From Crossiella equi (GTDB taxonomy: Bacteria; Actinomycetota; Actinomycetes; Mycobacteriales; Pseudonocardiaceae): a DNA stretch of 64,000 nt. Made by a program: the position numbers and the translations under genes. The stretch covers positions 5,193,786 through 5,257,785 of the forward strand of contig NZ_JAGIOO010000001.1 of assembly GCF_017876755.1 (NCBI RefSeq). The letters are read 5' to 3'. Below are positions 13,061 to 41,944 of the stretch, piece after piece (position 1 is the first letter of the stretch; each line of letters starts with the position of its first letter). The notes beneath the pieces were generated by a model, which worked only from the letters and a program-made list of their open reading frames with translations, had not been told where the DNA came from and did no database searches.

Positions 13061-13714
13061 TCAGTCCTCGCGGCCGGGCATCTTGCCGGTGACCACGAAG
13101 ACCACGCGCCGGGCCAGCGCCACGGCGTGGTCGGCGAAGCGCTCGTAGAAGCGGCCCAGCAGCGTGATGTCGACCGCGGGTGCGACGCCGTGCGGCCAGT
13201 CCTTGTCCATGAGCACCCCGAAGAGGTGCTTGTGCAGGGCGTCCATCTCGTCGTCGTCCTGCTCCAGCTCCAGCGCCAGCTCGACATCGCGCTCGCGGAT
13301 GACGCGCTCGGCCTTGTTGGCCAGCGCCACGGCGACCCGGCCCATCTGGGCGAAGTCCTCGCGCACCTGGTCGGGCAGCACGGGCTGCGGGTGGCGGCGG
13401 CGGGTGGCCTTGGCGACGTGCAGCGCGAGGTCACCCATGCGCTCCAAGTCCTCCGCGGCGTGGATGGCCGCCACCACGATGCGGAGGTCGGTGGCCACCG
13501 GTGCCTGGAGGGCCAGCAGCGCGAACGCCTGCTCCTCCGCGGTGGCTCGCGCCTCGTCGATCTTCTGGTCCTCGTCGATGACCTGTTCGGCGAGGCCGAG
13601 GTCGACGGTCAGCAGCGCTGAGGTCGACTTCTCCATCGCCTTCGCGACGTCGGCGCACATGTCGCCGAGGATGTCGGCGAACCGGTCGAGCTGCTCGTGG
13701 TAGGCCTCACGCAT
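13061..13714 (-). CDS. phoU: phosphate signalling protein PhoU
   Basis: Negative regulator of phosphate uptake, 217 residues, made of two PhoU three-helix bundles. The metal-binding pattern E/D-x-x-x-D is visible in each repeat: [15 protein letters not shown] with [12 protein letters not shown] in the first, and [10 protein letters not shown] with [15 protein letters not shown] in the second. It links PstSCAB activity to the PhoR/PhoP system. It converges on pstB, like phoY2 (Rv0821c) next to phoT. Confidence 0.95.
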
Positions 13715-13808
13715 GACCAAGAGCCTACGTCGCGAGGGTCGCGGAGGCTTCATCCATTGGTGAACCGAGCGTAAACGGGGCCATAACAGGTGGTGCTCAC
13801 ACCCCTGT

Positions 13809-16800
13809 TCAGCTGCAGCTGTTGTCCGCACCGTTCACTGTGGACAGATTGCCGGGCAGCTTGGGCTCAGTCGTCTGCTGACCGGGCGTCTGCGTGCCGC
13901 CACCGCCGGGCTTGACCACCTTGCCGTCGTACTCCGGGCCGAGCACCAGCTGGACGGCGCCGCCCATGCTGGGGTCCGGGACCAGCGTGGCCCCGGGGAT
14001 CGCGGCGGCCAGGGTGCGCGCGGCGTCCCGGCGCTCGTCGGAGAAGCGGATCACCGTCTTGTCCGACGGCGTGGCCGAGGTGCCCTTCTTGACCACCTCG
14101 AAGCCGAGCTCGCTGAGGCCGTTGACCGCCTTGGTCGCGTTGCCCGCCTTGTCCGCGCCGTTGAGCACCTGGATCTTCACCGTCTTCGGGTCGACCAGCG
14201 CGGCCGGGCTCAGGTCCACCGACGGGTTGTTCTGGGCCTGCGGGGCCGGGTTCTGGTTGCTGCCGCTGGCGGGCTTCTCGTGCGGCAGCGGGCTGCCGTT
14301 GATGATGGCCTGGAACAGCAGCTTGGCGTCCTTCTCCCGGAACTCCTCGCGGTACTTCTTGTTGCCCAGCTCCACCGTGCGCACCGGCACCTGCACGAAG
14401 GTCACGCGCCCGGCGTCCAGGCCCTGCAACGAGGTGCCGAGGGTGAGCATCTGGTCGATGCCGATGTTCTCGCCGTAGGTGGCCCCGGCGAAGGCCTTCA
14501 CGAAGTCCTGCAGCCGCGAGGGGTTGGTGAGCACCTCCTGCGACATCGTCTTGCGCAGCAAGGAGGACAGGAACCGCTGCTGGCGCCCGATGCGCTCGTA
14601 GTCGGTCTGCATCTCGCCCTGCACCTTGCGGATGCGCACGTAGCTCAGCGCGGTGTCGCCGGAGATGGTCTGCCGCCCGGTCTGGGTGATCACCGGGCCG
14701 AGCTCGTTGTCGATCAACGGCTTCGGCACGCACACCTCGACGCCCTTGACCGCGTCGACCATGGCCTTGAAGCCGTGGAAGTCGATGCCCACGAAGTGGT
14801 TGATGTTGAGGCCGGACAGCTGCTGCACCAGCTTGGTGATGCACTTCGGCCCGCCGATGGCGTACGAGGAGTTGATCTTGACGCCCTTGACCGGGGGCTT
14901 CATCGTGCCGGAGTACTTGCCGGTCTTGTCGTCCCAGCCCTCGCACGAGGGGACGTTGACCTCCATGTCGCGCGGGAAGGACAGGATGACCACGCGCTTC
15001 CGGTCAGCGGGCACGTGCGCGACCATCACGGTGTCCGCGCGGGCGCCCTTCTCGGACTTCTCGTCACCCACGCCGTCCTCGGCGGTGGCCCCGGCCCGGG
15101 TGTCCGAGCCGATCATGAGGAAGTTCTCGGCGCCGTACTGCTTGTCCTTGTCCTGGATGTCCGCCGCGTCGGGGTCGAGCGCGGACACCTCGCGGATCTG
15201 ACCGTTGACCCACTGCTTGCCCGCCCAGCCGACACCGGTGGCCACCAGCACGATGGCGGACACGGCGGCCACGAGCCCCTTGCCCACGGACGCCAGGCGC
15301 TTGCGGCGCGGGTCCTCGGGCTCCTCCTCGAGCGCTTCCGGCTCGGGCTCGGCTTCGGGCTCGCTCTCGGGCTCCGGTTCCGGCTCGGGTTCCTCGTCCT
15401 CACCGACCAGCTCGGCGTAGGAGACACCCATGGTCTCCACGTCCACGCTGGCACTCAGGCGCCGTTCGAGCAGCTGGGTCTGCTCAGCTGCCTCGGGGGC
15501 GTCGTCCTCAGGCTTCTTTGTGGCGGCCTCCTCGCCCTCGTCTTTTTCCCGGCTCAGGCTGGGGAGCTTGATGTACTGGGTGAGCTTGTTGCGCCGCTCC
15601 CGCTCCTTGGCCTCTATCTCGGCCATCTCGTCGTGCACGGCCGAGAACCGCACGAGGGTGGCGTCGATCTTCCGCCGCTTGTCGTCCATGTCCTCGTCCT
15701 CCGGCGCCTCCGCCGGGTTCGAGGAGGCCGGGGGCGGCGCACCGGGACGAGCGCCGGGCGGCGGCATGCCGGGCCCAGGCCGTCCGGGCGGCCCACCGGG
15801 ACCGCCAACGGGGCCGGGACCGCCGGGGCCAGGGCCGCCGGGCCCAGGACCGCCGGGACCGGGACCAGGACCGCCGGGACCGGGGCCACCGGGACCGCCA
15901 ACCGGGCCGGGCCTACCAGGACCGGGGCCGCCCATGCCGGGGGCGCCCATCGGGCCGCCCGGGCCGGGGCCGGGCCCGCCGGGGCCGCCCATGGGCCCAC
16001 CGGGGCCGAGGGGGCCGGGGCCGTCCGGGCCGGGCCGCCCCTGCGGGGGACGTCCGGCGGGCATCGCGGGACGCGAAGGCTGGTCCAGCGGCGGTCGCCC
16101 GCCCATGGGGCCGGGGCCAGGACCGCCGGGCCCGGGCATGGCGCCCCGGGAGGGCGGGTCGAGCGGCATGGCGCCGCGCGAGGGCGGGTCGAGCGGCATG
16201 GCGCCGCGCGAGGGCGGGTCGAGCGGCATGGCGCCGCGCGAGGGCGGGTCGAGCGGCATGGCGCCGCGCGAGGGCGGGTCGAGCGGCATGGCGCCGCGCG
16301 ACGGCGGGTCGAGCGGCACCGAGGGCCGGGACGGCGGGTCCAGGGGCCCGGGCAAACCCTGCCGGGAAGGCGGGTCCATCGGGCCGGGACCACCGTGGTC
16401 GCCCGGTCCCGGCATGCCGGGCCGCGACATCGGGGCGGGCATCCCCTGCCGGGAGGGGGGATCCATGGGGCCGGGCATGCCCTGGCGTGGGGCCGGGTCC
16501 ATCGGGCCAGGTCCGGGCATGGCGCCGCGCGAGGGCGGGTCCATCGGGTTGCCCTGGTCCACGGGGCCGGGCAGGGGCGGACGTCCGCCCCTCGGGTCCA
16601 TCGGCGGCCTGGCCATGGGCTGGGACGGCATGTCGCCCGCGGCTCGGCGGCCCGGGGGCGGCTCCACCGGCCCGCCGCGCCGCACCGGCGGCTGCGGTGG
16701 CGGTGCCTGCTGCGGCTCGTCCAGTGCGGCGAAGCCGCTGTCGTAGGCCGAGCCGAAGCCCGGGTCGTACCCGACCTCGGCCGGTTCCGGCGGCGGGGCG

Positions 16801-34681: not shown

Positions 34682-35056
34682 GTGGGACCGGAGACGGAGG
34701 TCGTGGTCGCACACTCGCTGGGCACCGCCGTGGCCTACGAGGCCCTGCACCGGCTGGCCCGCCCGTTGCCGCTGCTGGTCACCCTCGGGTCGCCACTCGG
34801 GCTGCGCACCGTCGTCTACGACCGCCTGCGCCCGGCGCCCCCGCACGTGCCACCGCTGCTGCGCCGGTGGGTGAACGTGTTGGACCGGGACGACCTGATC
34901 GCCGCCCGCGCGGACCTCACCGAGCTCTTCCCCGGATCCGGCGCGGTGCTGGAGCCGCACCGCCTGGTGGACAACGGCCGCACCCCGCACGCGGCGGAGG
35001 CGTACCTGACCAAACCGGAATCCGCTGGACCGGTGGGCGAGACCCTGCGCGGTTAA
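34682..35056 (+). pseudogene. truncated duplicate of the downstream alpha/beta hydrolase
   Basis: From VGPETEVVVAHSLGTAVAYE onward the translation runs in parallel with the C-terminal half of the intact hydrolase at 35067 (VGPETKAVVAHSLGAVVAYE). The VTLGSPLGLR, VYDRLRP and VNVLDRDDL segments are also shared. The N-terminal half is absent and the upstream sequence is unrelated, so this is a partial gene copy with the nucleophile A-H-S-L-G still present. A GTG at 34682 could start a 124-residue product, but folding without the N-terminal strands is unlikely. It ends 11 bases before the intact copy. Confidence 0.7.
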
Positions 35057-35066
35057 CCTCGGACGC

Positions 35067-35945
35067 ATGGCAGAGATCGTTCTGGTGCACGGCACGGGCC
35101 AGGAGCGCTACGAGCCGGGGTCCCTGGAAGCCGCCCTGGTCGCGGCCCTCACCGACGGGCTGCGCGCCGCCGGGTACGACGACGACCTCGCCGGGCGGGC
35201 GCGCCTGGCCAACTACTCGGGCCTGTTCGCCGCCCGGGCCCAGGAGGAGCTGGACCGGGAGGAGGAGCAGGTCGTCGCGGGCCTGCTCGGGCAGGTGCTG
35301 GCCGGTGCGGCGGAGCGCGGGGCGGAGGAGGCGCAGCGCCAGGTCGCGGGCCAGGCGGTGGCCGTGGTCGACCAGGCGCTGGCCAGCCCGGACGGCCCCC
35401 TGTCGGTGCTGCGCCCCCTGGTCGACGCCGCCTGGACCATGGGCGACCCGGCCCAGCTCGGCCTGACCGGCGCCAAGGAGTTCTTCTGGGGCGACCTCGC
35501 CCAGGTGGCCCGGTACCTGCTGGACAACCGCATCCGCGAGGCGGCCACGACCGAGGTCGCCGAGCTGGTGGGCCCGGAGACCAAGGCCGTGGTGGCGCAC
35601 TCCCTGGGCGCGGTGGTCGCCTACGAGGCCCTGCACCGCCAGCCCCACCCGGTGCCCCTGTTGATCACCCTGGGCGCCCCGCTGGGCTTCCGGGGCGTGG
35701 TCTACGACCGCCTGCGTCCGCAACCCGCCCGCGTACCACCGGGCCTGCGCCGCTGGCTCAACGTCCTGGACCGCCGCGACCTGGTCGCCGCCTCCGTCGA
35801 ACTGGCCCCGCGCTTCCCCGGGGACGCGGGCGTGGTCGAGCCCAACCAGTACGTCGACAACGGCTCCGAACCCCACTCGGCCAAGGGCTACCTCGCCCAG
35901 GTGGCCACGGGTCGCCCGGTCGGGGAGGCACTTCGCGCGGAGTGA
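35067..35945 (+). CDS. alpha/beta hydrolase next to a STAND protein, possible effector
   Basis: A 292-residue serine hydrolase of the lipase/esterase type. The oxyanion strand is at the very start (MAEIVLVHGTGQERYEPG), an Ala/Glu-rich helical insertion covers about 60-130, and the nucleophile elbow is A-H-S-L-G near residue 175, followed by LITLGAPLGF. There is no signal peptide, so it would act in the cytoplasm or on the inner membrane face. It lies 37 bases upstream of the STAND/TPR gene in the same direction, and a truncated copy precedes it. In NLR-like systems such hydrolases serve as toxic effectors. That role here is inferred from context. Confidence 0.78.
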   Translation: MAEIVLVHGTGQERYEPGSLEAALVAALTDGLRAAGYDDDLAGRARLANYSGLFAARAQEELDREEEQVVAGLLGQVLAGAAERGAEEAQRQVAGQAVAVVDQALASPDGPLSVLRPLVDAAWTMGDPAQLGLTGAKEFFWGDLAQVARYLLDNRIREAATTEVAELVGPETKAVVAHSLGAVVAYEALHRQPHPVPLLITLGAPLGFRGVVYDRLRPQPARVPPGLRRWLNVLDRRDLVAASVELAPRFPGDAGVVEPNQYVDNGSEPHSAKGYLAQVATGRPVGEALRAE

Positions 35946-35981: not shown

Positions 35982-37922
35982 GTGGCGGAGCAGCGGAACT
36001 CCCTCGACGGCGACAACAGCGGGCTGGTCGTGCAGGCGAGGGACGTCCACGGCGGCGTGCACTTCCACAATGCGCCGAGGTACGAGCCGCCGGACACCCT
36101 GCCCGGGATGACCGCCCACTTCGTCAACCGCGACGAGCAGCGCGCCGCCATGAGCGCCCGCTACGACGAGGCCGTGGGCGGGGGCCGGGTGTGCCTGCTC
36201 GCCTTGCTCGGGCAGGACGGCGTCGGCCGCCTGAGCACGGCCGTCCAGTGGCACCGGGAGACCCCGAAGCGCTTCCCCGACGGTCAGCTGCACGTGCGCC
36301 TGGGCGCCGCCGACCGCTCCGACCCGGAGGCCATGGGCGAGCGGCTCGGTGAGCTGCTGGTGCTGCTGGGCATCCCGGCCACCGAGCTGCCGCCCACGCC
36401 AGACGGCCGCCGGACCGCACTGCTCAACAAGACCTCGGGCAAGCGGGTGTTGCTGGTGGTGGAGAACGTCACCTCGGCAGGCCAGGTGGCCTGGTTCCAG
36501 CTCAACTCCCCAGGGGCGGCCGTGGTCGTCACCGCCGAGCCGAACCTCGCCGCTGGCCTGAGCCGCCGCGACTACCACCCGGTCCTGTTCGCGGGCCTGG
36601 CCCAGCCGCACCGGCTCGACCTGTACCGCAGCCTGCTCGGCCAGGTCGCGACGCAGGTGCCCGGGCTGGAGCGGTTGGCGGCCCGATACAGCGGACTGCC
36701 GATGGCGATCCGGATGATCGCCGCCACCCTGACCGCCAAGCCGAAGCGGGTGCACACGGTGCTCCGGCGCTTCGAGGCGCTGGGGCTGGCGGCCGTCGGA
36801 CCGGAGGAGGCGGAGGACGTGGGCAGATCCTTCGACGACAGCTACGCCGCGATGGAGGAGGAGCGGCAGACCGCGTACCGGCGGCTGGCCGGGCACCCCG
36901 GCCTGTCCTTCGACCCGGCCGCGGCCGAGGTGCTCCTGGGTGAGGACGCGGAGATCCTGTTGGAGGAGCTGGGCATTCCGCTGGAGGGCGGCCGCTACCA
37001 GCTGGACGACCTGGTGTGGCGCCACGCCGCCAGCCTGGCCACTCCGGCCGACCGCGACCCGGCCGCGGTCGTGCGGCACTACCTGCACAACACGGTCATC
37101 CGCGACGCCTGCCTCACCCAGCGGCCCCGGACCGGGCCGCTCTTCGCCCAGCTCGCCCCGACCACGGATGAGGCCGAGGCCAGGGCCTGGCTCACCCGGA
37201 ACCGCGAGGCCTTGCGCGGTGCGGTGCTGCTGGCCGAGGAGCACCGCCTGGACGAGGAGACCTGGCAGCTGTGCGAGGCGCTGTGGGGGCTCTACCACCA
37301 GTACGGGCACTACGACGATTGGATCAAGACGCACGAGGCGGGCCTGACGGCGGCCCGGCGCCTCAGGAACAACGCCGCGATCATGCGCATGGCCGGTCAG
37401 CTCGGGTCGGCGCACTTCGCGCAGGAGGAGTACGACCGGGCCGACGAGCTGTTCGCCGAGCAGTACGACCACGCCGTCCTGGCCGGGGACGGCTCGGGGC
37501 AGCAGAGCGCCCGGGAGTGGCGGGGCAAGGTCGCCGCCAAGCTGGGGGACGTGGCGCGGGCCGACCACTGGTTCCAGGAGTCCTGGCAGGCCACCGAAAC
37601 CGTGGTCCCCGAGAACGCCCGCCCCCGCACCTTCGCCCTGCTGCACCTGCAACTGGGCCGCCTGCACGGTTCGGTGGAGCACCTGCGCGCCGCCCAGGAG
37701 TACTTCGACACCACGGCCGAGAAGGACAACCAGGCCAAGGCGGCCTTGGAGCTCGGTCGCCTGCAGGGCGCGGCGCCGCTGCTGCGGGCCCTGGAGCTGT
37801 TCACCGCCACCGGATCGCCGGGCGGCCAGCTCAACACCGCCCGGGAACTGGCCAAGCTGGACAGCCGGTACCAGGACCTGGTGGTCGAGCTGGAGATCAG
37901 GCTGGGCCAGCGGCCGGGCTGA
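35982..37922 (+). CDS. STAND (NB-ARC-like) TPR protein with N-terminal amyloid-type motif
   Basis: A 646-residue NLR-like protein. Residues 6-28 hold a short motif, core L-V-V-Q-A-R-D-V-H-G-G-V-H-F, like the amyloid signalling motifs of bacterial NLRs. An NB-ARC-like region follows: FVNRDEQ (47-53), and a P-loop G-Q-D-G-V-G-R-L-S at 77-85 with Arg in place of the Walker lysine. The Walker-B-like strand is VLLVVENV, and GLPMAIRMIAA corresponds to the GLPLA motif. TPR-like helices fill the C-terminal third. The altered P-loop suggests weak or no ATP hydrolysis. GTG 35982 is favoured because GTG 35961 adds residues unlike the family. It shares 26 bases with the convergent gene. Confidence 0.8.
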   Translation: MAEQRNSLDGDNSGLVVQARDVHGGVHFHNAPRYEPPDTLPGMTAHFVNRDEQRAAMSARYDEAVGGGRVCLLALLGQDGVGRLSTAVQWHRETPKRFPDGQLHVRLGAADRSDPEAMGERLGELLVLLGIPATELPPTPDGRRTALLNKTSGKRVLLVVENVTSAGQVAWFQLNSPGAAVVVTAEPNLAAGLSRRDYHPVLFAGLAQPHRLDLYRSLLGQVATQVPGLERLAARYSGLPMAIRMIAATLTAKPKRVHTVLRRFEALGLAAVGPEEAEDVGRSFDDSYAAMEEERQTAYRRLAGHPGLSFDPAAAEVLLGEDAEILLEELGIPLEGGRYQLDDLVWRHAASLATPADRDPAAVVRHYLHNTVIRDACLTQRPRTGPLFAQLAPTTDEAEARAWLTRNREALRGAVLLAEEHRLDEETWQLCEALWGLYHQYGHYDDWIKTHEAGLTAARRLRNNAAIMRMAGQLGSAHFAQEEYDRADELFAEQYDHAVLAGDGSGQQSAREWRGKVAAKLGDVARADHWFQESWQATETVVPENARPRTFALLHLQLGRLHGSVEHLRAAQEYFDTTAEKDNQAKAALELGRLQGAAPLLRALELFTATGSPGGQLNTARELAKLDSRYQDLVVELEIRLGQRPG

Positions 37923-39402
37923 TCCCGTCCCGCACCAGGGCGACCGCCGCCGCGACCGGATCGCCCGCGACCGTCCACTCGCGACCGTCCTGGTGCCGGA
38001 TCTCGTTGCCGTGAACGAAGACCAGGCAGCTCGGCAACGCGTCGAAGGACAGCTCGTCCCGGTCCCCGAGCAGCACCTCGGCGGTCAGCCGGGTCGTGCG
38101 GTCCGGGTGGCGGACGTGCGCGACCAGGATCGGGTCGGCCAGCGCCGGGGCGTCCAGCGAGCGGCCGCGCTGCACGTCCGCGCCGTAGCGGCCGTGCGGG
38201 GTGTGCAGCCAGGCGCGGGTGGTGGCCGTGAGGGGCTGGAAGTCCGGGGACAGCACCGGGACCAGGGCCGGGGAGTCGGGCTCCGGCAGGCCCAGCAGCC
38301 CGTAGGCCAGGGTGCGGTGGCGGGCGGCGGCCTCGTCCGGATGGCTGGCGACCAGGTCGGCGACCGCGCGCAGGTCCGGCGGGGTGGCCAGCACCGACTC
38401 CAGCTGCGGGCGCAGCGGGCGGCGGGGGTCCAGCCTGGGGGCCGTCCGGCCCAGGACGTCCACGCACGTGCCCGGCACCACCTCGTGGTCCGGGAACGCC
38501 GCCAGCGCCACCGGGTGGCCCAGCGCCGCTCCGTACGTGGTCACCGCGCCGTGGTCGCCGACGACCAGGTCCGCCGCGACCAGTGCCGCACCCCAGCCCT
38601 CCAGGGGCGGGACCAGGAGCAGGCCCGAGCGCAGGCAGTCGGCCAGCCACAAGCGCAGCTGGTGGGTGCCGTGGCCGTGCCAGACGTGCGGGTGCACGAT
38701 GCCCGCCACCAGCCAGGACTCGTCCAGCTCGGCCATGACCTGGCGGAACAGCGCGGGCCACGAGCCGAACACCGAGGAGCCGTTCCAGGTCGAGGAGATC
38801 ACCAGGAGGCGCTGGTCCGGACCCACGCCCAAGTGGCGGCGGTAGCGGTCGCGGAGGAAGGTGCTGGCGCGCAGGCGGTCCAGGCACGGGTCGCCCGCCA
38901 CGGTCGCGGTCGGCAAGGCCTCCGGGACCTCGCGGGCCAGGCGGGTGTGCTGTTCGGCGTGGGTCAGGACAAGGGCGTCCGGGATGACCTCATCCTCGTG
39001 CAGCAGCCAGTCGCGCGAAAGGCCGTAGGCCGACGCCGACAATCCGATTTCCGATTTCCGATTTCCGATTTCCGATTTCCGGGCCGATTTTTTAGTGTAT
39101 CCAACCCCGTGCGAAACGATCATCAGTTGCGCGGCGAGTCTGCGCAGCTCACCCCGGTGGTTCGCGGTGACCGCCAGGTCGAACTTCCGCTCCAGTGCCT
39201 CCGGCCAGGAAATCGCCCGCACGCCGAGCGCCTCGAAGGTCTCCGCCACGCCGTCCGACACCACCGACACCTCGGGACAGGTGAACAGCAGCTCCACCCG
39301 GAGGTCGGAGTCGAACAGCGGCACCAGGTCGAGCAGCCGGTTGGCCGAGGCGACGGTGTGGACGACGAACAGCACCTTCCGGGTGTCCTGGCGCGTGGAC
39401 AT
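37897..39402 (-). CDS. GT-B-like uncharacterised protein containing a heptanucleotide repeat
   Basis: A 501-residue protein. The first 110 residues resemble the N-terminal half of a GT-B or CDP-glycerol-transferase fold (VLFVVHTVASANRLLDLVPL, then VSHGVGY). The second half has VISSTWNGSSVFGSWPALF, GIVHPHVWHGHG and VVGDHGAVTTYGAALGHPVAL, the pattern of a nucleotide-sugar or CDP-polyol binding site. No close family could be named. At residues 108-122 the gene contains 5.6 copies of a 7-bp repeat coding for K-S-E-I-G-N-R units, next to a run of six A. Unit gain or loss would break the frame, so the gene may be phase variable. It overlaps the STAND gene tail to tail by 26 bases. Confidence 0.72.
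   Translation of the reverse strand: MSTRQDTRKVLFVVHTVASANRLLDLVPLFDSDLRVELLFTCPEVSVVSDGVAETFEALGVRAISWPEALERKFDLAVTANHRGELRRLAAQLMIVSHGVGYTKKSARKSEIGNRKSEIGLSASAYGLSRDWLLHEDEVIPDALVLTHAEQHTRLAREVPEALPTATVAGDPCLDRLRASTFLRDRYRRHLGVGPDQRLLVISSTWNGSSVFGSWPALFRQVMAELDESWLVAGIVHPHVWHGHGTHQLRLWLADCLRSGLLLVPPLEGWGAALVAADLVVGDHGAVTTYGAALGHPVALAAFPDHEVVPGTCVDVLGRTAPRLDPRRPLRPQLESVLATPPDLRAVADLVASHPDEAAARHRTLAYGLLGLPEPDSPALVPVLSPDFQPLTATTRAWLHTPHGRYGADVQRGRSLDAPALADPILVAHVRHPDRTTRLTAEVLLGDRDELSFDALPSCLVFVHGNEIRHQDGREWTVAGDPVAAAVALVRDGISPAAGPA
39043..39081. repeat. heptanucleotide tandem repeat (TCCGATT, 5.6 copies)
   Basis: Five complete TCCGATT units at 39043, 39050, 39057, 39064 and 39071 plus TCCG lie in the coding sequence of the gene at 37897-39402, and a T6 run follows at 39088-39093. 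Seven is not a multiple of three, so each slipped unit shifts the frame. Confidence 0.97.
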
Positions 39403-39520
39403 GTCCAGACCTTAACCGCGTGGCCAGTTCCGGACGGTGGGCCGAGCTCGACCGGGCACAGCGCCGGGTGTGCGCTGACGGCGGATTGACCCCGGCGCGG
39501 CTGGGCCGATCATCACAGGT

Positions 39521-41284
39521 ATGCGGTGGCGACGGGTGGCCTCGGTCCTGGTGCTCACGACCTTCATCAGCGGCGTGCCGCCCGTCGCCACCGCGGCGCC
39601 GACGGCGGACCCGGTGTGCGCCAACAGTTGCGACGGCCTCGATCCCAGCCGGGCGCAGCGCGAGACGTTCCCGGTGCCGGAGAAGCGGATCAACGGCAGA
39701 CGCGTCGTCCTGCACGTCTCCGACCCGGACGCGATGGCCTGGGCGAGCATCGACGACGGCCGCCCGGGCGACAAGGTCTGGCTGGACCGCTCCTGGGACG
39801 GCGGCCGCACCTGGGACGGCCTGCTCGGCCTGGCCTCGATCCCCGGCCCCTGGACCGGTACCCGCACGCTGATGTTCAACCGCGCCGACCCGGTGCGCCA
39901 CCGCCGCGGCCTGCTCCGCGCGTGCGGTGACGCCAACGGCGTGACCTGCACCGACTGGCTGCACCCGGTGGTCTGCGCGCAGTTCTGCGACGGCCGCGAC
40001 GCCGCCCTCGCGGACAACCCGGTGAGCCCGGTGCCCACCGCCTCGATCCGCGGCCGCACGGTCACCCTGCACACCGACCGCGCGGGCCTGGCCTTCGCCT
40101 CGCTCTCCGGTCGCCGCACGGGCGACGAGGTGTGGCTGGACCGCTCCTGGGACGAGGGCCGCACCTGGCCGGACGGCGGCTCGCTGGGCCGCACGACCAC
40201 GGGCCGCACCACGATGGTCAACGTGAGCGACCCGGCCGCCCGGCTGTACGGCGGCGCGGTGCGGGCCTGCGGCCGGGCCGCGGAGGGCCAGGAAGGCGCC
40301 TGCACGGCTTGGGCGCGCCCGGCCCAGGACCGGGTCGGCGCGGCCGGGGACGCCCTGCTCTGGTGGTACGACCCGCACCAGGCCTGGTGGCGGTACAGCT
40401 GGTGGAACAGCGCGGTGACCACCCACGCCCTGATCGACTCCGGCCGCTACCCGTGGCTGGCCGACCGCGTGTTCGAGACCAACAAGGGCCCGTTCCCGGC
40501 GGGCCAGCGCGGTACCGACCCGATCGAGGGCAACTTCATCAGCCGCGCCGTCGACGACGCGGGCTGGTGGGGCCTGGCCTGGCTGGCCGCCTACCGGCAG
40601 ACCGGCCAGCGCAAGTACCTGGACTCCGCGCGCGGCATCGCCGAGTACATGCACGGCTTCTGGGACACCACGACCTGCGGCGGCGGGGTGTGGTGGGACC
40701 GCGAGCGCACCTACAAGAACGCGGTCACCACCGGCCTGTACCTGCGCTTGTCGGCCGAGCTGGGGGACGCGACCTGGCTGGCCCGCGCCCGCACCGGCTG
40801 GGACTGGTTCGAGCGCAGTGGCATGGTCAACGCCGACGGCCTGGTCAACGACGGCCTGCACCAGTGCCGCAACAACGGCCAGACCGTCTGGTCCTACAAC
40901 CAGGGCCTGGCCCTGGGCACCGCGACGATCCTCTGGCGCACCACGGGCGAACGGCGCTACCTGGACTCCGCCCGCCGCCTGGCCACCGCCGCCACCACGC
41001 GCCCGGAGCTGACGGTCAACGGCGTCCTCACCGAGTCCTGCGACCAGCCGGGCCGCAGCTGCGACGACAACCAGCGCCAGTTCAAGGGCATCTTCCTGCG
41101 CTACTACGCGGAGTACGCCCGCGCCACCGGCTCCGGCGGCGACTACCTGACCCGCCAGACCACCTCGCTGTGGACCACCGCCCGCGACCCGCTCAACCAC
41201 CTGGGCCAGCGCTGGGCAGGCGGCGCCCCGGACGGCAACTGGCGCAGCCATGCCAGCGCGTTCGCGGCGCTGGTCGCGCACTGA
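39521..41284 (+). CDS. secreted glycoside hydrolase family 76 (alpha-1,6-mannanase-like)
   Basis: An exported 587-residue enzyme. The signal peptide (RRVASVLVLTTFISG) ends near the AAPTA site at about 30. Residues 35-290 are two similar modules of about 120 residues, each with C-x-x-x-C-D-G at the front, a GD-x-VWLDRSWD core and a final RACG...C-T-x-W. The GH76 (alpha/alpha)6 barrel follows. Its two catalytic aspartates are D345-D346 in RAVDDAGWWGLAW, and repeat motifs such as CGGGVWWDRERTYKNAVTTGLYL are typical. It may cut alpha-1,6-mannan of fungal walls or the cell's own lipomannan. Divergent from the repeat-bearing gene; monocistronic. Confidence 0.88.
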   Translation: MRWRRVASVLVLTTFISGVPPVATAAPTADPVCANSCDGLDPSRAQRETFPVPEKRINGRRVVLHVSDPDAMAWASIDDGRPGDKVWLDRSWDGGRTWDGLLGLASIPGPWTGTRTLMFNRADPVRHRRGLLRACGDANGVTCTDWLHPVVCAQFCDGRDAALADNPVSPVPTASIRGRTVTLHTDRAGLAFASLSGRRTGDEVWLDRSWDEGRTWPDGGSLGRTTTGRTTMVNVSDPAARLYGGAVRACGRAAEGQEGACTAWARPAQDRVGAAGDALLWWYDPHQAWWRYSWWNSAVTTHALIDSGRYPWLADRVFETNKGPFPAGQRGTDPIEGNFISRAVDDAGWWGLAWLAAYRQTGQRKYLDSARGIAEYMHGFWDTTTCGGGVWWDRERTYKNAVTTGLYLRLSAELGDATWLARARTGWDWFERSGMVNADGLVNDGLHQCRNNGQTVWSYNQGLALGTATILWRTTGERRYLDSARRLATAATTRPELTVNGVLTESCDQPGRSCDDNQRQFKGIFLRYYAEYARATGSGGDYLTRQTTSLWTTARDPLNHLGQRWAGGAPDGNWRSHASAFAALVAH

Positions 41285-41307
41285 TCGTGCGGGGCCGGTG
41301 ACACCGT

Positions 41308-41517
41308 GAGCAGACTGGGATCACCCGCCGCTGGTTGACCGAGCACCCACGCCTGATGCTGATCGAGGGCGCGAAACACAGCCCACGGGACAACCCCGGC
41401 GAACGCATCCGGGCCGGGCTGAAACACCACATCGCCACCACCGCGCCCGCCATGATGGCCAGCCAGTCCGTGACCCGCTCGGCCTCGGCCGCGACCGCAC
41501 CACCGAACAGAACCTGA
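41308..41517 (+). pseudogene. IS630-type transposase C-terminal remnant
   Basis: The translation includes RRWLTEHPRLMLIEGAKHS and P-R-D-N-P-G-E-R-I-R-A-G-L-K-H-H, which is the end of the IS630/Tc1-mariner catalytic domain (strand, N-P-x-E-R with the last DDE acid, then the LKHHIA helix). The N-terminus and the terminal inverted repeats are missing, so it is a decayed fragment. It occupies most of the 300-base gap between the GH76 gene and the small motif protein. Confidence 0.65.
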
Positions 41518-41584
41518 CCACCGCCGCACCCTGGACCAGCCCCTGGCTACCCGAAGGTTTCGGACAAGACAGATGGCCAGGTGC

Positions 41585-41944
41585 TCAGCGCTGCCCGCCG
41601 TAGTTGATGTCGCCCTTGATGTCCCGGGCCTGGATGGCCATGCCGTGCACCGTGCCGGTGATCACGTTGGACACGCCGCCCGCCGCCACCTGCGGGTTGA
41701 TGTTGATCTTCTGCCACTCCTCGCGCAGCGCCTTCTTGAAGGCCGGGTCCTCCTGCTCGGCCTCCTCCAGCGCCCCGGCCAGCCTGCGCACCTCCTTGGA
41801 GTCCTCCGCGGCCCGCTCCGAGGACTCCAGCATCAGCGTGGCCACCTCGTCCCCGGCGAACTTCTGCTTCACCAGCTCGTAGAGGTGCACGAAGCCCTTG
41901 GTGGCCAGGGCGGCGGCAATGGAGACGAGCACGGGCTCCGGCAT
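41585..41944 (-). CDS. small helical protein with C-terminal amyloid-type motif
   Basis: A 119-residue protein. Residues 4-80 are predicted helical: a hydrophobic N-terminal helix (VLVSIAAALATKGFVHLYEL), then charged helices rich in Glu/Lys. Residues 93-115 form a glycine-punctuated motif with core M-A-I-Q-A-R-D-I-K-G-D-I-N-Y. It aligns without gaps to the N-terminal motif of the STAND protein at 35982. The layout (helical domain plus C-terminal motif) resembles membrane-active HeLo/Bell-type effectors and the many actinomycete proteins of this kind. A downstream executor or adaptor role in an NLR-like pathway is inferred. ATG 41944; divergent from the histidine kinase. Confidence 0.75.
   Translation of the reverse strand: MPEPVLVSIAAALATKGFVHLYELVKQKFAGDEVATLMLESSERAAEDSKEVRRLAGALEEAEQEDPAFKKALREEWQKININPQVAAGGVSNVITGTVHGMAIQARDIKGDINYGGQR

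Follow-up and report, generated by a model that had tools for sequence, protein, structure and literature searches.

A Crossiella equi locus joining an NLR-type protein, a BELL-type protein with a shared amyloid-signalling-type motif, and a putatively phase-variable partner gene

The stretch of DNA analysed here, called the window throughout, comprises 64,000 nucleotides of Crossiella equi (family Pseudonocardiaceae; assembly GCF_017876755.1, contig NZ_JAGIOO010000001.1, positions 5,193,786 to 5,257,785), whose genome is a single contig of 9.44 Mb. Its positions 35,982 to 41,944 hold three linked genes: a STAND protein, hereafter STAND1 (35982..37922, plus strand; 646 amino acids (aa) from a GTG start), which combines an NB-ARC-like region with TPRs and is the putative sensor; a conserved partner gene (37897..39402, minus strand; 501 aa); and a small helical protein of 119 aa (41585..41944, minus strand), the putative executor. 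We propose, with a probability of about 0.58, that they form an NLR-type immune or self-killing module in which one gene, the partner gene, is phase-variable. A first-pass annotation of the same DNA had paired the STAND protein with the helical protein through an amyloid-type motif; this reading is partly supported by our analysis, and it had missed the conserved partner gene, the repeat within it, the STAND1 orthologues that lack the motif and the other motif-bearing proteins.

The motif shared by STAND1 and the helical protein

Both open reading frames (ORFs) are as the first-pass annotation gave them, and the alignment it had drawn holds: residues 6-28 of STAND1 (35997..36065, plus strand) match residues 93-115 of the helical protein (41600..41668, minus strand) without a gap, with N, G, G, Q, A, R, D and G in common. 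A hidden Markov model (HMM) of the motif was made for this comparison; 30 relatives of the helical protein supplied their C-terminal segments, and the window's own row was excluded to avoid circularity. When this HMM was run against the 559 six-frame ORFs of the window (at least 60 aa each), only two matches were obtained, the helical protein at 42.1 bits and STAND1 at 21.6 bits, while the same ORFs reversed gave none. The sharing of the motif is beyond chance, and the segment is real and special.

In the AlphaFold2 model of the helical protein, five helices span residues 4-82, with a mean predicted local distance difference test score (pLDDT) of 81-90 in each ten-residue block up to residue 80; the first helix is hydrophobic and just 12 residues long, and the tail, residues 85-116, is disordered with pLDDT under 50. 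A 66-row alignment of relatives shows that both ends are conserved, the head beginning M-P-E-P-[VI]-L and the tail, which keeps the motif, ending near V-V-Q-A-R-D-I-x-G. By this predicted build the protein is a putative executor of the BELL type, and we refer to it as BELL; a search of solved structures with the BELL alignment gave chance-level matches only (best E 0.21). Relatives of BELL are present in 77 of 150 genomes of the family. A scan of named genomes confirmed 128, and the 80 best loci, which were kept, are mostly from Pseudonocardiaceae, with some from Nocardia and a few from other groups. The search for BELL in phages gave no match, and that in plasmids returned a single Nocardia record.

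The arrangement in which one motif stands at the N-terminus of an NLR and again at the C-terminus of a BELL protein has been outlined for filamentous actinomycetes under the name BASS (PMC7889193, PMC8086366). The window shows this arrangement, and its pair thereby joins the published NLR/BELL/BASS type. The first-pass annotation was thus right about a linked NLR-type protein and small helical protein sharing an amyloid-signalling-type motif, but two of its labels are not supported: the module is not "undescribed", since the arrangement is in print, and the motif is not "RHIM-like", as the window cores read G-M-A-I-Q-A-R and G-L-V-V-Q-A-R and not G-(I,V)-Q-(I,V)-G, the RHIM/PP core as given in PMC7885112. 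A RHIM/BASS3 assignment was dropped because of this disagreement at the core residues (V/I-Q-A-R in the window). Judging by its residues, the motif is probably BASS2-like, as it contains ARD, a trimer that PMC9815663 reports for BASS2. The window pair thus resembles the signalosomes outlined in these papers in the placement of the motif at the NLR N-terminus and the small-helical C-terminus, in its actinomycete host, in the linkage of the genes and in the ARD trimer; it differs in that two genes separate STAND1 from BELL, whereas the published class is characterized by adjacent or overlapping genes, and in that the window locus holds a conserved partner gene with a repeat whose period is not a multiple of three (non-3n), of which no description was found in these sources. 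Nearly adjacent NLR and BELL genes do exist among the relatives, at locus L089 (gap of 4 between the ORFs) and locus L091 (gap of 116).

The spacing of about 3.7 kb given by the first-pass annotation was measured as 3,663 bp. Each of the five Crossiella genomes has STAND1 and BELL in convergent orientation, 3.7 kb apart in the window and approximately 7.2-7.4 kb apart in the other four, where a second NLR, STAND2, sits between them. STAND2 has a GK P-loop and passes the Pfam NB-ARC model; its N-terminus is motif-like by eye only, with a motif HMM score under 8 bits, and the genome of the window has no orthologue of it (best 30%). Beyond the genus, the co-occurrence of the two motifs on which the earlier reading had been made to depend was recovered: a second motif protein lies near BELL at 16 of 60 BELL loci against 1 of 40 random 20-kb control loci drawn from the same set of genomes (the raw count was 17 of 60, and L142 was removed as probably BELL itself). 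Linked motif pairs are also somewhat more alike than shuffled ones (24 pairs; the shuffled sets came up to the mean 65 times in 5000), a comparison in which relatedness was not controlled.

STAND1 shows STAND/NB-ARC homology over its NTPase and TPR body, with NCBIfam matches to HaaT (5e-25, residues 39-518) and AfsR (2.5e-19, residues 33-592), both under the equivalog cut-offs; in Pfam, weak TPR matches fell under the cut-offs and NB-ARC was not reported. Its Walker A (36210..36236, plus strand) departs from GxxxxGK(S/T) and reads GQDGVGRLS, with Lys replaced by Arg, so that the P-loop is degenerate, as had been noted in the first pass. At 30 STAND loci, the window's own included, the Walker A carries Arg in six (the window, its four Crossiella orthologues and L062) and GK in 18, does not match the pattern in five and is doubtful in one (L070). 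The motif of STAND1 scored 15.9 and 12.0 bits in other Crossiella orthologues, in a separate HMM run, against 21.6 bits in the window.

Across the whole genome, a four-row motif profile gave 20 matches at E up to 10, many of them at NLR N-termini. Besides BELL, a STAND/SARP-like protein and a further small protein matched it at the C-terminus, and just one protein was a convincing match to the BELL head. The STAND/SARP-like protein (L006, G000:C1:890831-890917) has the motif at its C-terminus instead of its N-terminus. The small protein (L009, G000:C1:2192125-2192211) consists of 114 residues, has a hydrophobic N-terminal part followed by the C-terminal motif, and may be a second type of executor. 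A protein of 224 residues (L010, G000:C1:2557505-2557585) carries the motif at its N-terminus, followed by several hydrophobic stretches, and is not an NLR. In locus L137, a protein at 13415-14641 near the BELL gene has a 44-bit motif in its middle and no STAND match.

The partner gene and its tandem arrays

The gene that follows STAND1 in convergent orientation, with the two 3' ends overlapping by 26 bp, is a conserved partner. By tblastn it was found beside the best STAND1 homologues at 29 of 30 loci, the window's own among them, and at BELL loci in 17 of 60 and 22 of 80, two sets (G-numbered and named) that overlap in part; none of 40 random controls had it. It is carried by 117 of 200 genomes of the family and by 27 of 296 genomes of the class, the latter count including its own. 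The association holds in the opposite direction: when copies are picked by the partner gene alone, 67 of 82 are faced by a convergent STAND gene no more than 1.6 kb away, and in a wider look at partner-gene loci a STAND ORF was found in 39 of 40. A strict BELL-type motif is present in the NLRs adjoining the partner gene at 15 of 40 loci, so that the motif and the partner gene need not go together.

At other loci the genes usually run [NLR>][<partner<BELL], with BELL upstream of the partner gene on the same strand (L098, L101, L108, L125). The four other Crossiella genomes have two copies of the partner gene, one beside STAND1 and one beside BELL; in the window, the sole copy remaining at this locus is the one beside STAND1, and a GH76 gene lies between it and BELL. 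The 3.7 kb gap between STAND1 and BELL is therefore explained by the loss of the BELL-side copy and the intervening GH76 gene. Only one further copy was found in the genome of the window (L274, G000:C1:3703656-3704804); no array was flagged in it, and it is convergent to an NLR (3705307-3707328) about 0.5 kb away whose motif match is weak (E 5.4). The partner protein is perhaps of GT-B-type fold, as are Glyphos_transf and Epimerase_2, the families that some of its relatives weakly resemble; the window protein itself matched neither of the two.

Inside the partner gene of the window, Tandem Repeats Finder (TRF) detected a perfect 7-bp array (39043..39081, minus strand; 5.57 copies, 100% matches) with the unit GGAAATC on the coding strand, and the gene is in frame through it. 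To place this array in its family, 179 matches to the C-terminal part of the partner protein were collected, of which 13 without the upstream N-terminal part and 31 repeats were dropped; the resulting 135 rows underlie the counts of STAND and BELL neighbours, the tally of units and the hexamer, third-position and open-frame tests, and removal of a further repeat (L297, the same as L058) left 134 distinct copies. Internal arrays occupy the same place in the relatives, between HGxGYxK and YGLS, although their units differ (AAATCGG, AAACCGG, AAACAGG, AGAGCCC and others; 28 units after rotation). Among the 134 copies, 54 have an internal array (45 of 7 bp, seven of 8 bp and two of 10 bp) and 15 have an array at the 5' end (eight of 7 bp, seven of 8 bp).

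A scan of each gene and its 200 bp upstream for perfect arrays of at least 3 copies with periods of 5-15 gave 74 arrays, with periods of 7 (56), 8 (14), 10 (2), 6 (1) and 9 (1), so that in 72 of the 74 the period is not divisible by 3. Repeats of non-3n period in a coding frame or at its start are a mark of phase variation, and such repeats are what the family carries. In 0.80 Mb of random loci searched for units of 4-9 bp in at least 4 copies, one 4-bp unit in 4 copies and one array of 3n period were found, and in the five Crossiella genomes GGAAATC in three tandem copies occurs only at the partner-gene family (all 25 places were compared). Arrays away from the partner gene were seen at L097, L149, L124 (4 bp) and L206 (two of 4 bp), as well as at L114 (position 18360, 7 bp), L194 (7 bp) and the control L262 (4 bp), beside the 3n-period array among the controls. 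The arrays of L098, L125, L167, L215 and L220 stand at the 5' end of a partner gene.

The reading frame was then compared across the 134 copies. Of those with an internal array, 33 are in frame and 21 out of frame, against 78 in and 2 out for the other copies (Fisher 4e-8); for the 5'-array copies the assignment to a frame is tentative because of uncertain start codons. All 22 out-of-frame rows with an internal array (21 distinct genes) are open on both sides of the array, and no lesion other than the array was seen between the conserved parts. On this ground we reject decay as the explanation for these rows. Two copies are out of frame with no array above the threshold: L158 looks decayed, and L212 retains about two repeat units. 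When the 135 rows are split by the gene through which they were picked, the internal arrays are 7 in and 7 out of frame for BELL, 4 and 3 for STAND, and 21 and 12 for the partner gene itself, whose copies came from score-ranked lists that favour in-frame ones; the window copy is in frame.

Close pairs show how the arrays change. Sixteen pairs at 85% identity or more were found, one of which was a gene paired with itself, and in the 15 used eight differ by whole units, four are equal, two differ by part of a unit and one, L346/L350, differs in the array unit itself. Whole-unit changes that switch the frame were seen at 97.4% identity (6.43 copies out of frame, 5.43 in), at 95.3% (likewise 6.43 out and 5.43 in), at 94.0% (6.86 out, 5.86 in) and at 92.8% (12.29 in, 10.29 out). 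Whole-unit changes in copy number between close relatives, giving on and off frames, are a further mark of phase variation, and they are found here.

A -10-like hexamer, TACACT (39094..39099, minus strand), precedes the array of the window by 12 bp. In the 30 bp ahead of the array, the pattern TANNNT is present for 50 of 55 internal and 10 of 15 5' arrays, against 3 of 65 matching places without an array and 1.6% of random control 36-mers. It overlaps the codons of Y-[N,T,S]-K. Where these residues are present, A or T is the last base of the middle codon (N, T or S) in 49 of 54 copies with an array against 2 of 21 without, the background for other N, T and S codons of the same part of the gene being 75 of 702. 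Because third codon positions are biased in the array copies, the hexamer seems to be kept beyond the need of the protein, although shared descent inflates these counts. The 5' arrays of L098, L125, L219, L330, L369 and L372 also come after a -10-like hexamer, and in several a start codon may lie only a few bases away; the internal arrays have a similar layout.

Proposed mechanism and competing explanations

In the mechanism that we propose, the NB-ARC/TPR body of STAND1 would sense a trigger and expose the N-terminal motif, which would template the matching C-terminal tail of BELL; the helical head of BELL, then freed, would attack the membrane. The partner protein, possibly of GT-B type, may work with the NLR, either by making or modifying what the NLR watches or by arming the response. 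Slippage of the 7-bp array in the reading frame would turn the partner protein on or off, so that a clonal population would hold both armed and disarmed cells. What we infer is that the motifs template amyloid, that BELL attacks the membrane, that the partner has GT-B activity, that switching is reversible in living cells and that the module serves in defence. Extended to the whole family, the proposal is that a large group of actinomycete immune modules pairs an NLR gene with a convergent contingency gene of GT-B type, sometimes with a BELL gene, that the hexamer with its 7, 8 or 10-bp array switches this gene, and that each mycelium mixes armed and disarmed cells; to this wider claim we give even odds.

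The array could be taken as drift at a tolerant surface loop beside an ordinary BASS/BELL/NLR pair, with no switching role. The length of the loop varies freely, 65 of the 134 copies have no array, and after a gene breaks, chance alone may leave both of its frames open for some time. Drift in a coding frame should, however, favour periods divisible by three, which all but two of the 74 arrays avoid; the random loci yielded a single non-3n array (the 4-bp unit in 4 copies), and at one conserved place the units differ by lineage while the adjoining third codon positions keep a -10-like hexamer. We therefore regard drift as very unlikely. The hexamer is also the ground on which the array might be seen as mainly a transcription element, an intragenic promoter that gives a shorter product started downstream or tunes the level, the frame being secondary. 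The frequency of TANNNT before internal and 5' arrays speaks for such a role, as do the 5' arrays with a start codon within a few bases, as in leaderless genes. On the other hand, a consensus scan of the window listed no full sigma-70-type promoter at the hexamer and array, and a promoter would give the period no need to avoid multiples of three, which makes this explanation quite unlikely.

Other alternatives concern the pairing of STAND1 with BELL. BELL may be a shared executor for many unlinked NLRs of the genome, its linkage to STAND1 being incidental; the 20 genomic matches of the motif profile, many at NLR N-termini, and the single convincing BELL head are what would be expected. Against this, all five Crossiella genomes keep the linkage, which is also enriched outside the genus (16 of 60 against 1 of 40), and linked pairs are somewhat more alike than shuffled ones, with the reservation on relatedness given above, so that we hold a shared executor to be unlikely. 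It could also be argued that STAND1 works with the alpha/beta hydrolase encoded next to it and that its motif link to BELL is vestigial. The hydrolase precedes STAND1 in all five Crossiella genomes, and in two of them the motif of STAND1 is gone; yet a search of the remaining 25 of 30 STAND loci did not find the hydrolase, the motif of the window is intact and scores above the two other Crossiella STAND1 motifs, and both genomes with a motif-less STAND1 have a second NLR whose N-terminus looks motif-like by eye. This last explanation appears highly improbable.

Several findings weigh against the three-gene, phase-variable module that we prefer. About half of the family, the 65 copies just mentioned, has no array, so switching is not essential. 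Among the close pairs, L308/L322 (96.2% identity) and L304/L322 (87.7%) show a 5-bp difference, short of a whole unit, and all array comparisons are between species, with one genome per species and none clonal. The two Crossiella orthologues closest to STAND1 lack the N-terminal motif, which argues against strict one-to-one pairing. BELL lies upstream of just 5 of the 82 copies picked by the partner gene, a count in which short flanks can miss it, and the three-gene set is thus one version of a two-gene core. The profile matches behind a GT-B-type fold are weak (Glyphos_transf in 2 of 21, Epimerase_2 in 1 of 21, best E 0.0005), and a search of solved structures with the partner-gene alignment remained at chance level (best E 0.24). 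PADLOC had no match for five proteins, namely four of the window and STAND2 of the relatives.

Neighbouring genes, known systems and implications

The alpha/beta hydrolase that the first-pass annotation had placed just before the sensor (35067..35945, plus strand; Abhydrolase_6, E 0.00037, under the curated cut-off) does end 36 bp ahead of the start of STAND1. Its inclusion in the module is not supported, since it is a neighbour within the genus only, present at 5 of the 30 STAND loci, the five Crossiella ones; as a general partner it was dropped, not being found at 25 of 30 loci examined with flanks of about 1.4 kb. Upstream of it lies the C-terminal remnant of a second alpha/beta hydrolase (34691..35056, plus strand), with 63% identity to the C-terminal part of the intact one. 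The remnant is 70-79% identical to the hydrolases beside STAND1 in the four Crossiella relatives, whereas the intact hydrolase of the window is 48-53% identical to them, as if the original hydrolase gene had been cut and a divergent copy had taken over. The GH76 glycosyl hydrolase gene between the partner gene and BELL (39521..41284, plus strand; Glyco_hydro_76, 1.1e-42) had no tblastn match at 1e-6 in the 210 loci L055-L264 and is taken as a bystander. Elsewhere in the window, at 16135-16318, there is a 30-bp tandem repeat (6.1 copies, 98% matches) whose period is divisible by 3.

The proposed module can be set beside known systems. Phage growth limitation (Pgl) of Streptomyces coelicolor is described as phase-variable through a G tract in pglX, a methyltransferase gene (PMC4365076); it is likewise an actinomycete defence gene with repeat-length change and on and off states, but there the repeat is a G tract in pglX, while the family studied here has 7, 8 or 10-bp units in another gene, beside an NLR, and is known from sequence alone. 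STAND NTPases with fused GT4 glycosyltransferase domains have been proposed as conflict systems with GT4 as the effector (PMC8195603). The likeness is the association of a glycosyltransferase domain with STAND proteins; the difference is that GT4 is fused to STAND in the cases given there, whereas the partner of the window is a separate convergent gene whose family has weak similarity to Glyphos_transf and Epimerase_2. Diversity-generating retroelements are reported to mutate putative sensors of conflict systems in multicellular bacteria (PMC10907252), and thus also tie targeted hypermutability to a conflict system, though by retroelement mutagenesis and not by the repeat slippage proposed for the partner gene.

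For repeats in NLR-linked genes, no account was found in the open literature, most subscription journals being outside the reach of that search. If the proposal is correct, this would be, to our knowledge, the first repeat-switched NLR/amyloid system.

The amyloid pair alone would be one more member of a published class; it is the partner gene that changes this. Amplicon sequencing of any culture can reveal the state of its array, the many lineages with different units offer a natural experiment, and the retention of the hexamer at third codon positions suggests a cassette acting at the DNA level, which can be tested for mutability. If the partner gene switches, bacterial NLR-type immunity would have a built-in random on/off control, which may serve as bet-hedging against the cost of self-killing or, as has been proposed for Pgl (PMC4365076), may ease the selection on phages for counter-defence.

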